Assembly (NCBI GenBank): GCA_947169235.1
Contig: CAMVOY010000021.1
Coordinates: 1 to 37,825, forward strand
Origin: an uncultured Lachnospiraceae bacterium
Lineage (GTDB): Bacteria > Bacillota > Clostridia > Lachnospirales > Lachnospiraceae
DNA: 37,825 bases
Reading direction: 5' to 3'
Position numbers and translations under genes: made by a program. The notes under the pieces are model-generated. The model was not told the origin of the DNA and did not search any database. It saw only the letters and a list, made by a program, of their open reading frames with translations. Below, in pieces: positions 33,017-37,722 of this stretch (the first letter of the stretch is position 1; each line of letters opens with the position of its first letter).

Positions 33017-33035
33017 CGTTACTCTCCTACTCAGA

Positions 33036-33260
33036 TCATCCTTCTATCTCGGCGGAAACATAGGTGTATCCCGTCGAATCGATAATATTTTTCAGCACCT
33101 CTTCATCAGGTGCATTCTCCGTAACGAAGGTCACAATATCTTTTTTATGAGAGGCCTTTACCTTCTTTGCATCCGTGAAAACACGACGGATCGCATCAGC
33201 CACGTGAGCCTCGCACATCCCGCACATCATTCCCTCTACATGAATTGTTGTCTTTGCCAT
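33036..33260 (-). CDS. Heavy-metal-associated (HMA) domain protein
   Basis: A 74-residue cytoplasmic protein with a single HMA ferredoxin-like fold, the size of CopZ-type copper chaperones. The metal-binding motif is EGMMCGMCEAHV with Cys13 and Cys16, followed by VADAIRRV and later strands to residue 71. It could carry copper, zinc or a similar ion. It starts with AAGGAGGG before the ATG and is the first gene of an operon with a two-component system, an unusual position that suggests metal involvement in the signal. No metal-transport ATPase is nearby. Confidence 0.88.
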   Translation of the reverse strand: MAKTTIHVEGMMCGMCEAHVADAIRRVFTDAKKVKASHKKDIVTFVTENAPDEEVLKNIIDSTGYTYVSAEIEG

Positions 33261-33377: not shown

Positions 33378-34553
33378 CTATGGGATCGGATGAAGCGTAT
33401 CGATCGTAGAAAACAGCTTTTTCTTCGCCTTACTTATCACCGGTTTCCTGAGCACATTCGGGACTGTTGGCGATGTCGCTATACCACGGATAAACTTTAT
33501 CTGCGAATATCCCGCGATGATCCGGTTTATCTCTTCGAGCTCTTTTTTATCCGATGTATTAAAATACTTCGCCAGGATGATTTCCCATACCCTTGCAAAT
33601 TCCTTTGGTCCGAGGACTCCCTTGATCTTTCCCCATCCGTGCTTTGCAGCCGTCACATATACCAGATGCATTGATGACAGGTCAAGTATGGGATGTCCCA
33701 AACCGGAGTCTTCGACATCTATAAGAACGATCTCCCCGTTTTGATACATCATGTTTCCGGGATGAAAATCCTGATGGATAAACGTGTTTCTCTCCGGAAT
33801 ATCATCAATCAGCTTCATCAGCCTTGCCGTCTCATCTTCGGTGTAGTAGCCACGATCCGCCGCGGCGCGTATGTCAGCTCGCGCATTATTCCTGGCATCC
33901 TGCAGAGAACCCGGCTCCAACTCGATCTGATGGAGTTTGATGAGTGTATCCGCTATCATATTTGCATACCTGTCTAAGTCGTCCGGATGAGACCCCATTT
34001 CCTGAAGCATGGACTTTGCATCGATCATCTCATATACAACTCCGTAATCCTCTCCGACTTTGACAACATCAAATGCGATAGCCGAAGGAATCCCTTGTAC
34101 AAAAACGCTTTTGGTAACCTCTTTGTTCTTGCGTATCTTCTCAAGACTGTTGCGTTCTCCGTAGTACACCTTGGCTATGGTTTCCGGATCCAGTCGGTAA
34201 ACAACTCCGTTTCCGCCTTCGCCGATCATCTCACATCCTTCAACACTGATCTCTCGAAGTCTCTTTTGAACGTCAAAAAGATCCGTAAACCCGGTCGTAT
34301 CAAAAATGTCAAAAACCTCAGGAGAAACCTCGGTAACAGCAATCTCCGCTCCCACACTCTTTCTCACCTTCATCAACACACGGAGACCGGCGCTTGAGAT
34401 GTAGGCAAGCTCTGAGGCATCAAAAACCGGATTTGCCCCCTCGTTCTCGGAAAGGATTCTCTGGATTTCTTCATCAATCTGAGATGCATTGTTGGTATCG
34501 ATCCTTCCCTCAAGAAAAATAGTTATTTCCTTTTCTTTTTTTTCTGATTTCAT
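33378..34553 (-). CDS. STAS domain fused to phosphotransferase-type kinase
   Basis: A 391-residue fusion. Residues 1-100 form a STAS domain of the anti-anti-sigma kind, with the phosphorylation loop AYISSAGLRVLMKV and Ser54 at the place phosphorylated in SpoIIAA and RsbV. Residues 105-330 form an aminoglycoside-phosphotransferase-like kinase: GEGGNGVVYRL (111-121), Lys128, HQDFHPGN (His260-Asn267) and DVED (279-282). The kinase substrate is unknown; an antibiotic is unlikely. Its ATG directly abuts the stop of the MATE gene with AGGAGGTG upstream. It lies in an operon with a MATE-HATPase fusion whose ATPase could be its partner. Confidence 0.85.
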   Translation of the reverse strand: MKSEKKEKEITIFLEGRIDTNNASQIDEEIQRILSENEGANPVFDASELAYISSAGLRVLMKVRKSVGAEIAVTEVSPEVFDIFDTTGFTDLFDVQKRLREISVEGCEMIGEGGNGVVYRLDPETIAKVYYGERNSLEKIRKNKEVTKSVFVQGIPSAIAFDVVKVGEDYGVVYEMIDAKSMLQEMGSHPDDLDRYANMIADTLIKLHQIELEPGSLQDARNNARADIRAAADRGYYTEDETARLMKLIDDIPERNTFIHQDFHPGNMMYQNGEIVLIDVEDSGLGHPILDLSSMHLVYVTAAKHGWGKIKGVLGPKEFARVWEIILAKYFNTSDKKELEEINRIIAGYSQIKFIRGIATSPTVPNVLRKPVISKAKKKLFSTIDTLHPIP

Positions 34554-35882
34554 TTACACCTCCTGTACTTTGCACATTCCATAGCTAAACAGCTTTTCCT
34601 TTTTAATAAAACGAACATATCCATACATCAGCCCAATCGCCACCACCGGTCCTGACGCTATACCTGCCGCTATTCCCTCAAGTGCGATCTGCCCGAACAG
34701 CATCGAAAAAAGTATCGGCAACACAGCAATAGCCATACCGATCATTACGATCGCGCGAAGCACTCTTCTCGTGTATTGGTAGAATACTCCTGCAATACGT
34801 GAAAAGCATATAAAGATTGTTGCAGGAGCCAGTATTATGAGCATTATAGTTGCGCGCCCGGCAGTCTCGGCATCATCGATATCAAAAGCCGCCGGCATAA
34901 TGAATGACATACACAGTATGATGGCGGTCAGCACAATACCCTCTATCATAGCTGCACGTTTTGTGATCTTTATGGAATAATCCATACGTTCACTGCTGTT
35001 TTTACCTATACTGTCATTCATCGCAACAATTTCATATTCACTTATTCCTTCGCTCAGATAAAACACGATCTCAAAGACATTTATCACTATTGCTACGGCT
35101 GCGACTCCGGATGCTCCGTAGTTTTCAAGAGTATTGGTATTTACCAACATTTCAAACAAAATCATAAATATAGCAAGTGCGCTTTCCGGGAAACCTACCC
35201 TTGCTATCTCCAGTACTTCCCGGAAGTTCAGGTGCCATCTGAACCTGATCCCGTGTTTTTTTGTGAATAAAAATGTGCATACTATAAGGAGCTCAACCAT
35301 GTTCGATATTACCGAAGCTAATCCCACTCCAAAAAGTCCCATCTGAAGACCAAGCTGCCAGGAGAGCAAAGCATTTATGCCTACTCTGGATACGCCCGCA
35401 ACATAATACTGCACATAGCCACCGCGATACAACACATATGTAAGTAAAAAGGTATCAAACAAAACCACAAGCGGATCGAACCGCATCGCGTTGAAGTAAT
35501 CCAGCGCACCATCATACACAGCCGGATCATCCGCCACAAGCCGGACAAGATCGGGCGTAAAAAGAGTATAAATCGAAGTCAGAATAACCCCGCAAATACC
35601 GCACACTATCAACGTCTGGCTGAATAAATCTCCCATTTTTTTGTGGTCGCCTGCACCATGTGCCCTTACTACAAACGCTGCTGCAGCTACACTTATGAGA
35701 TATCCGATAAACACTTCAAAATACATGTACGGTTCTATTAGATTGACAGATGCAAACGCCTCATCCGTAGAGATATTTCCGATCACAATCTCATCTACTA
35801 AAATCCCTATCTCTTCAAGTAAAACGCCAACAGTTGCCCCGATGAATAACGGGAAGAATCTTATATCTCTTTTATCCGGCAT
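34554..35882 (-). CDS. MATE-family transporter
   Basis: A 442-residue membrane protein with about 12 segments and two MatE halves, typical of Na+- or H+-driven multidrug or metabolite exporters. No extra domain is fused. AGGAGG precedes the ATG, 18 bases after the stop of the MATE-HATPase gene, and its stop is directly followed by the STAS-kinase ATG, so all three are co-translated from one mRNA. Substrate unknown. Confidence 0.86.
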   Translation of the reverse strand: MPDKRDIRFFPLFIGATVGVLLEEIGILVDEIVIGNISTDEAFASVNLIEPYMYFEVFIGYLISVAAAAFVVRAHGAGDHKKMGDLFSQTLIVCGICGVILTSIYTLFTPDLVRLVADDPAVYDGALDYFNAMRFDPLVVLFDTFLLTYVLYRGGYVQYYVAGVSRVGINALLSWQLGLQMGLFGVGLASVISNMVELLIVCTFLFTKKHGIRFRWHLNFREVLEIARVGFPESALAIFMILFEMLVNTNTLENYGASGVAAVAIVINVFEIVFYLSEGISEYEIVAMNDSIGKNSSERMDYSIKITKRAAMIEGIVLTAIILCMSFIMPAAFDIDDAETAGRATIMLIILAPATIFICFSRIAGVFYQYTRRVLRAIVMIGMAIAVLPILFSMLFGQIALEGIAAGIASGPVVAIGLMYGYVRFIKKEKLFSYGMCKVQEV

Positions 35883-35900
35883 GAAATAAATCCTCCTATC

Positions 35901-37643
35901 TTAATTTTGATCATATTTTACCAGAAAAGAACTTCTGTTAAAACTCATTGTTGTCAGGTGTCGGTTGTCGAAATCTCTCTTCTCCAGATAAGACGCAACA
36001 GTATAAGCAGAAAGAGATTTGATGCTTAAGTCCTCATCTGCCATATCGAAAGAAACCCCTCCGTCCTTTGAGATGAGTTGAACCCCCTCAGGTCTGATAA
36101 ATACCGTACATTCGGCAAGAACTGCTTTGTTATCATTCATCTGCCTTATGAACATATTCATCTCTTCTACAAGCAGCGTGACGCGACCGATCGTTCGGTT
36201 ATCTACGCTGTGATCATGTAAAAGCGTCTCAATCTCGTGCTGCACCCTTATGATATCCTCCGGATCAGTACTCAGATTATAGATATAACCGGTTTCGTCC
36301 CCGAAAGTCCTATTCAGAAGCAACGGACTATCCTCCTTGCCATAACGGAGCCTTAAGAACAGGACCACGGCAAAGTATGCAACAATCGGTCCTCCTAAAA
36401 GACCGACAAATACGCCGAATATATCCAGAACTACTCCAAATATAACAACAAGAGGTACACTGAAGATGATATCTCGCATGGCACAGGCGATAAGTCCCAA
36501 TAGTATCCTCTCTATGATCAGATAGTAGGATGTAACAAGATATAACAGACTGACAAAAACAGAGCCAAGTGCCGTCACACGTACAGTCTCCTGCACATAA
36601 TGGGCGAGTTCGGGCGATGTTACGTCCAAAATAGACGGCACAAATGGTGCAAAAATTATCAATGCGACCGATACTGCTATTCCCTCTATGATAGCCGTTT
36701 TCCGCGCAAGCGCATAGATGTAGCGCAAACCATCTTTGCTGTGTTCCCCGTAGTATACGCTCAGAATAGGTGAAACCGCCTCTCCGATGCCGTCAAAGAG
36801 TAACTGAAACTCCCTACACAGTGTTATGGTTGAGACTATGATCAGATACTGTGAACCGAACCTCGCACTGATAAAAACATTAAGTATCGCAGCGAAAGCA
36901 GCGAGGAAAAGGTATGAACTGGAATCGATGATGCTGTAGCGCACCACATCCTTTAATACTCTAAACGAAAAATAAAGATTGAACCGAAGAGAATTGCTCT
37001 TCTTCAAAAAGTGGATCAGATAGATCAGCAGAGAAACGGCATCAAATATGAATGAAGCAAGCCCGATGCCCCTGATCCCCATAAACTGACTCAACACAAC
37101 TGAAAAAACGATGTTACCAAGACCCTGCACACCGCTTGCAATGGTGGAGATAGTCTCATCACCATCGCTGTATACCGCTTCACCTATGAACATCTGTACG
37201 GGCATGATCAGGATCGTAAATCGCATCCAGGAAAGATAACCCGAAGCCTGCGAAAAAATCTGGCCGGTAACACCATCGCTTTTTAAATATGCCTCTCCAA
37301 ACAGACTTATCGCTACAAACATAATTACTCCGACCACAATGGACATAAGTAACCCCAGACCGAAAACCTGATCGGCTCTTTTCTTGTTGAACTTGCCCAT
37401 CTCGGTAGAGTAAAGGATCGGTACTCCTAACGATATCACAGATCCGAAAAACGCTGCAAGCGAATACATCGGAGTCACCAACGTGACGCCTGCTACAGCA
37501 TCTGAGCCAACAACGATACCGGCAATAATGGAATCCGACATCAAAAGCAAGGAAACCACTGTCATGGTCAAAGTACCGCCAAGCAGCATGGAATAAAACT
37601 TTTTTGACATCAGCGTGGGCCGGTTTTTCTTTAATAGACTCAT
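35901..37643 (-). CDS. MATE transporter with C-terminal RsbW-like ATPase domain
   Basis: A 580-residue fusion. Residues 1-432 are a MATE transporter with about 12 membrane segments. A short linker leads to a C-terminal HATPase_c_2 domain (450-578) of the anti-sigma-factor kinase type. Its ADP/Mg G-box is visible as Asp527-x-Gly529 in SKDGGVSFDM, while the N-box is LLVEEMNMFIRQMN (490-503), where the usual Asn five residues after Glu is not in its place. The domain would be cytoplasmic and could bind or phosphorylate the STAS domain encoded at the end of the operon. GGAGG precedes the ATG and a promoter lies at 37694-37722. Confidence 0.85.
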   Translation of the reverse strand: MSLLKKNRPTLMSKKFYSMLLGGTLTMTVVSLLLMSDSIIAGIVVGSDAVAGVTLVTPMYSLAAFFGSVISLGVPILYSTEMGKFNKKRADQVFGLGLLMSIVVGVIMFVAISLFGEAYLKSDGVTGQIFSQASGYLSWMRFTILIMPVQMFIGEAVYSDGDETISTIASGVQGLGNIVFSVVLSQFMGIRGIGLASFIFDAVSLLIYLIHFLKKSNSLRFNLYFSFRVLKDVVRYSIIDSSSYLFLAAFAAILNVFISARFGSQYLIIVSTITLCREFQLLFDGIGEAVSPILSVYYGEHSKDGLRYIYALARKTAIIEGIAVSVALIIFAPFVPSILDVTSPELAHYVQETVRVTALGSVFVSLLYLVTSYYLIIERILLGLIACAMRDIIFSVPLVVIFGVVLDIFGVFVGLLGGPIVAYFAVVLFLRLRYGKEDSPLLLNRTFGDETGYIYNLSTDPEDIIRVQHEIETLLHDHSVDNRTIGRVTLLVEEMNMFIRQMNDNKAVLAECTVFIRPEGVQLISKDGGVSFDMADEDLSIKSLSAYTVASYLEKRDFDNRHLTTMSFNRSSFLVKYDQN

Positions 37644-37693: not shown

Positions 37694-37722
37694 ATTATAC
37701 CATTTTCTTTTCTGATTATCAA
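37694..37722 (-). promoter_or_regulatory. Promoter of the MATE-HATPase, MATE, STAS-kinase operon
   Basis: On the minus strand TTGATA (37722-37717), 17 bases, TATAAT (37699-37694). Confidence 0.8.

Follow-up and report, generated by a model that had tools for sequence, protein, structure and literature searches.

A degenerate RsbW-like tail on a MATE transporter encoded with a STAS-APH fusion protein: a possible transporter-tethered branch of partner switching

Introduction

In partner switching, a dephosphorylated STAS protein binds an RsbW-type protein, and phosphorylation of the STAS protein releases it. Such switches are known mainly for the control of sigma factors, with a few other outputs, and among the closest described systems are RsbU-RsbW-RsbV and SpoIIE-SpoIIAB-SpoIIAA. 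Then, could a membrane transporter carry the receptor of such a switch? Here, we analyse a three-gene operon in a stretch of 37,825 nucleotides (the window), which is the complete contig CAMVOY010000021.1 (C21) of the 2.37 Mb draft genome of an uncultured Lachnospiraceae bacterium. The operon shares with the above systems an RsbW-fold domain and a STAS domain with its acceptor serine, and in relatives a SpoIIE-type PP2C gene is found beside it. However, here a transporter carries the RsbW-like domain, which is catalytically degenerate, the STAS domain is fused to an APH kinase, and sigma-like open reading frames (ORFs) rarely lie near loci of this kind. We tentatively propose that the operon encodes a branch of partner switching tethered to a transporter, in which a dead RsbW-like tail would dock the STAS-APH protein; this could well be right, but we hold it with slightly more doubt than belief. 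Other contigs of the same genome are denoted by C-numbers and loci by L-numbers.

The operon and its products

As an earlier note on this DNA described, the three genes lie on the minus strand in the order MATE with tail, MATE, STAS-APH, and the ATG of the last directly abuts the stop codon of the second. The sequence 5' of the operon ends with the contig. The features are as follows.

37694..37722, minus strand: promoter-like TTGATA-17-TATAAT (11 of 12 matches), 5' of the MATE-tail gene
35901..37643, minus strand: MATE transporter with C-terminal RsbW-like tail, 580 amino acids (Pfam MATE)
35904..36326, minus strand: the tail, residues 440-580 (about 140 residues), predicted RsbW/SpoIIAB fold
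36138..36167, minus strand: N-box region within the tail (EEMNMFIRQM), lacking the Asn
34554..35882, minus strand: second MATE transporter (MATE-2), 442 amino acids, without tail (Pfam MATE)
33378..34553, minus strand: STAS-APH fusion, 391 amino acids (Pfam STAS and APH)
34260..34553, minus strand: STAS domain, residues 1-98, SpoIIAA/RsbV-like
34392..34394, minus strand: codon of Ser54, the STAS acceptor position
33717..33776, minus strand: APH catalytic stretch, His260 to Asp279

It should be noted that the total of promoter-like matches in the region is not above that of shuffled sequence. The two transporters score 80.2 and 67.2 bits with the MatE profile (PF01554), for which the curated cut-off is 24.9, and none of the three proteins matched any PADLOC anti-phage family at E≤0.01.

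The STAS domain is recognized by profile and by fold and does carry the acceptor Ser54 that the earlier note had assigned to it. The SS-x-G motif including this serine is kept in 136 of 138 STAS-APH ORFs (ISSAGL in 124). The APH domain (PF01636) is likewise supported by profile and fold, with its Lys, Glu, His-x-Asp, Asn and Asp catalytic residues all intact. The NCBIfam model TIGR02172 matches residues 104-299 (E 6.7e-28), but the score of 98 is below the curated 228 and the match covers the APH part only. Six STAS-APH proteins (L031, L033, L034, L041, L046 and L027; two of them Pfam-checked) carry in addition an RsbW domain whose N-box is intact; five of them have a PP2C gene called nearby, and five a stand-alone STAS gene.

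The tail is RsbW-like and probably a pseudokinase

The structure model of the tail finds its best matches in SpoIIAB, RsbW and UsfX, which bears out the RsbW-like nature claimed earlier. The Pfam profile HATPase_c_2 (PF13581) gives no match on the window tail even at E≤10, and it does match the MATE-HATPase paralogues on C3 and C7 of the same genome.

In RsbW/SpoIIAB HATPases, the N-box Asn and the G2 Gly serve ATP and Mg binding. The window tail has neither, with EEMNMFIRQM (which we take to be the N-box) and LSAYTV at those places. The Asn is also gone in the orthologues L070, L128, L189 and L192, and the Gly in L070 and L128. Across families, the Asn is present in 27 of 28 non-MATE HATPase sequences compared with 11 of 27 MATE-HATPases, where the L070 and L090 entries nearly duplicate those of the window and L023. 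Because both residues are lost, the window tail is probably a pseudokinase. Consequently, the earlier suggestion that the tethered HATPase is an active kinase, phosphorylating Ser54 of STAS-APH according to the state of the transporter, is improbable for this genome, despite the RsbW fold and the intact Ser54. The C3 and C7 paralogues do keep the Asn, and the C3 gene lies downstream of a STAS-APH gene with only one gene between, so tail-driven STAS phosphorylation by these paralogues is plausible.

Could the tail instead be vestigial or purely structural? On the tree, at least three changes account for the loss of the ATP-site residues, and in a plus-strand MATE gene on C54 the tail is too eroded for the tail profile to detect. 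However, measured against the orthologues L128, L192 and L189, the window tail is 46-66% identical compared with 60-70% for the MATE part, and it differs from that of Lachnospiraceae bacterium P6B14 (L070), a rumen isolate, by one nonsynonymous and three synonymous changes. By sequence comparison, the tail is thus nearly as conserved between genera as the transporter itself. L128 and L192 also keep it beside PP2C and STAS genes, and a vestigial tail is very improbable.

We also considered whether loss of the Asn follows from the presence of separate RsbW and PP2C proteins. A PP2C gene lies within four genes of 18 of 31 Asn-lost but only 6 of 45 Asn-kept MATE-HATPases (p 5e-5). The raw link is clear, but the losses cluster by clade and yield only three independent pairs on supported branches of a quick tree, built without a mixture model and in which long branches meet. 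This explanation is therefore not established.

Recurrence of the two families and of partner-switching genes

Among 299 genomes, 19 hold both MATE-HATPase and STAS-APH genes, 26 MATE-HATPase only, 10 STAS-APH only and 244 neither (Fisher p 4e-11 in a strict recount, to which shared ancestry and habitat may contribute). The recount comprises at least 82 MATE-HATPase places in 45 genomes and 41 STAS-APH places in 29 genomes; in a looser count, 6 of 35 matching genomes had the APH part only. At least 5 of the 82 MATE-HATPases have a STAS-APH gene no more than 10 kb away, while 0.63 would be expected under uniform placement, and with APH-only genes counted too the figures are at least 7 of 84 and 0.84. 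These are lower bounds, since at most four MATE-HATPase candidates were scored per genome, and the window's own pair is not in the set.

For the neighbours of MATE-HATPase, 73 of the 84 places were re-fetched, leaving out seven near STAS-APH or APH genes, three more of the window's genome, and G137:C40; two of them (L245 and L248) have no MATE-HATPase ORF, so that 71 distinct loci remain. Within four genes, PP2C occurs at 23 loci, RsbW at 13 and STAS at 15; at least one of the three is found at 27 loci, all three at eight and none at 44. Against a small control of 119 far genes, PP2C alone reaches significance (p 0.007; RsbW 0.08, STAS 0.05).

The neighbours of STAS-APH were counted around 109 anchors, one per neighbourhood, from 126 non-redundant proteins (138 in all). 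It is a biased set, which mixes genome stretches with at least 80 loci chosen for their similarity to the query; the window is represented by L070, whose MATE-HATPase is counted among the far genes. Six of the anchors are themselves RsbW-fused. Within three genes of the anchors there are stand-alone STAS (25), Y_phosphatase3-like phosphatase (25), PP2C (18), RsbW alone or PP2C-fused (18), HD_4 (15), MATE-HATPase (12), SDF-type proteins with or without HATPase (8) and tail-less MATE (5), the family names resting on Pfam for examples. Compared with genes at least five genes away, PP2C, RsbW, STAS, phosphatase and HD_4 genes occur more often near the anchors (p 6e-4 to 1e-5); all these profiles except that of STAS were built from near genes, which favours the near side. 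The frequent phosphatase neighbour (PF13350, e.g., L020:5744-6562) hints at reversible phosphorylation. At L043 (8733-11387), a MATE-HATPase of 884 amino acids with a C-terminal HD-CE domain is convergent to a STAS-APH gene.

These neighbours bear on a quite different explanation, namely that the operon serves drug resistance or self-protection, with two efflux pumps, an antibiotic-phosphorylating APH, and the STAS domain and tail as accessories. The APH fold and catalytic residues are intact, and some MATE-HATPase genes lie beside very large genes resembling nonribosomal peptide synthetase (NRPS) genes. However, the APH-fold matches listed are only 11-18% identical, the STAS domain is fused to the APH domain and keeps its serine in nearly all cases, and it is PP2C, RsbW, STAS, Y_phosphatase3 and HD_4 genes that recur beside STAS-APH. 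Moreover, the window has no ORF longer than 791 amino acids, and hence no large synthetase (its first 26 kb are unannotated). A resistance operon is therefore quite improbable. The NRPS-like neighbours occur at L217, L220, L225, L226, L230 and other loci (Pfam-checked at L226, elsewhere judged by eye and size), and at L217 PP2C and RsbW genes are in the same run; regulated peptide export is possible at such loci.

Conservation of the arrangement

The MATE-tail proteins of the window, L189 and L192 form a supported clade, and that of L128 is 56% identical to the window's overall and 60% in the MATE part. At L192 the order is MATE, MATE-tail, PP2C, STAS; at L128 it is PP2C, two other genes, STAS-APH, MATE-tail, PP2C, STAS, MATE, where PP2C and STAS are 56 and 61% identical to their L192 counterparts. 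L189 has MATE and MATE-tail in a stretch with neither PP2C nor STAS, so that PP2C and STAS directly follow MATE-tail in two of three distant orthologues (PP2C called by an in-house profile). At L072, genes for PP2C, RsbW, a phosphatase-like protein (by eye) and another STAS-APH precede a MATE-HATPase, which is directly followed by a STAS-APH gene whose product is 69% identical to the window's. Since L192, L128 and L072 show arrangements bearing PP2C, STAS or RsbW, the window operon resembles a cut-down form of a module that recurs.

Several observations nevertheless weigh against a tethered branch. The operon has neither PP2C nor RsbW of its own (Pfam on the three proteins). In P6B14, whose proteins are 97-98% identical to the window's, two unrelated genes lie between MATE-2 and STAS-APH, and in RUG381 (L071) the 107 bases 5' of the STAS-APH ATG are unlike the window's MATE-2 end. 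Synonymous divergence from P6B14 is 0.28 for STAS, 0.11 for APH and 0.04 for the MATE gene; because of this difference, and because the genes are not adjacent in the nearest relatives, STAS-APH and MATE have had separate histories in this lineage. On the wider scale, MATE-HATPases make up 12 of 580 near and 3 of 432 far genes of STAS-APH, a difference that is not significant (p 0.11), and STAS-APH or APH lies within four genes at only 2 of the 71 MATE-HATPase loci, the seven known pairs being excluded. The two families do recur together as the linkage proposed earlier required, but an operon of exactly these three genes is not conserved. The P6B14 copy of MATE-2 is broken into two frames (L070:3237-4566), and a ribosomal-protein gene, named from sequence, is upstream of MATE-tail there. 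Of 39 genomes of the genus, 13 give a STAS-APH match at E≤1e-40, and a close MATE-tail copy is found only in the window's genome, G299 and G317.

The gene order in P6B14, the upstream context in RUG381 and the unequal synonymous divergence favour the explanation that STAS-APH and the MATEs merely share a transcript, with STAS-APH using a free RsbW encoded elsewhere and the tail another partner, e.g., a stand-alone STAS protein such as follows the MATE-tail orthologues in L128 and L192. In addition, the stretches read around the STAS-APH paralogues on C11 and C33 contain no MATE. On the other hand, close placement recurs in distant lineages, including Treponema (L107), and the families co-occur across genomes; we regard a merely shared transcript as unlikely, though it deserves serious consideration.

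Downstream of STAS-APH in the window are a small CopZ-like heavy-metal-binding protein (33035-33260, minus strand, by eye) with its own promoter-like box at 33324-33296, followed by a two-component pair and an ABC transporter of FtsX type.

Partner-switching genes elsewhere in the genome and the proposed mechanism

The window's genome has one free RsbW, on C5, and three SpoIIE-type PP2Cs over the cut-off, on C13, C5 and C10. The C5 order is MATE-HATPase, GNAT, dCache-PP2C, RsbW and then a STAS match flagged with one internal stop. On C13 (L250:3646-7222), STAS, PP2C and an SDF symporter lie in a single run, downstream of a response regulator; the N-terminal part of the SDF protein matches the in-house tail and RsbW profiles. 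At other loci, five SDF-type proteins with a comparable N-terminal part are found near STAS-APH. Pfam names only the SDF part in the L047 and C13 proteins, and the N-box Asn is absent from the SDF stretches (by eye). The C13 run adjoins AMP-binding, carrier-protein-like and MBOAT-like genes (by eye).

From these observations we infer the following mechanism for the tethered branch, in which the transporter is best read as the output or the membrane anchor of the partner switch. STAS-APH made from the same mRNA would dock on the dead RsbW-like tail of the first MATE as long as Ser54 carries no phosphate. Such docking would change transport by this MATE, alone or with the second one, and/or place the APH kinase at the membrane, where the APH domain may phosphorylate a separate substrate, either a small molecule or a protein. 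Ser54 would be phosphorylated in trans, probably by the free RsbW of C5, and dephosphorylated probably by a SpoIIE-type PP2C encoded elsewhere in the genome. Placed on a transporter, a dead RsbW-like domain would sense the phosphorylation state of STAS but not reset it; the tail would therefore be a docking gate, with RsbW and PP2C acting in trans. Of the earlier interpretation, the RsbW-like tail, the acceptor serine and the recurrence are supported; an active tail kinase and a fixed operon are not.

The earlier remark that no sigma factor is adjacent fits the wider loci, with 5 sigma-like ORFs in 194 loci, a rough count in which 3 of the 12 query ORFs (L154, L156 and L160) look like wrong picks. 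Since the genome holds 16 Sigma70_r2 proteins over the cut-off, the switch may still have a transcriptional output.

More speculatively, and with doubt clearly prevailing, the RsbW-like domains of MATE and SDF transporters may constitute an undescribed class widespread in gut and rumen bacteria, which would bind STAS or STAS-APH proteins and make the transporter the direct output; active forms would phosphorylate STAS, and pseudokinase forms would leave phosphorylation to free RsbW and act as phosphorylation-sensitive gates.

Comparison with known systems

If the proposal is true, a phosphatase-kinase-STAS relay would control export across the membrane via a transporter-borne RsbW-like receptor, and both the common STAS-APH family and MATEs with unexplained 140-residue tails would gain a function. 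The earlier note knew of no system with this make-up; likewise, no paper on MATE-HATPase or STAS-APH proteins was found in the open-licence literature searched. To our knowledge, the STAS domain acts directly on the SulP or ABC transporter in SulP/SLC26 and MlaFEDB, and no RsbW-like domain is present on the transporter. In SiaABCD of Pseudomonas aeruginosa, the output is a diguanylate cyclase and there is no transporter fusion. What the proposal shares with SulP/SLC26 and with MlaB on MlaFEDB is a STAS domain acting on a transporter (PMC8256260, PMC7367683). Precedents exist both for STAS domains acting on transporters and for outputs other than sigma factors; the parts of the present system are known, and no account of their joining was found in the literature searched.

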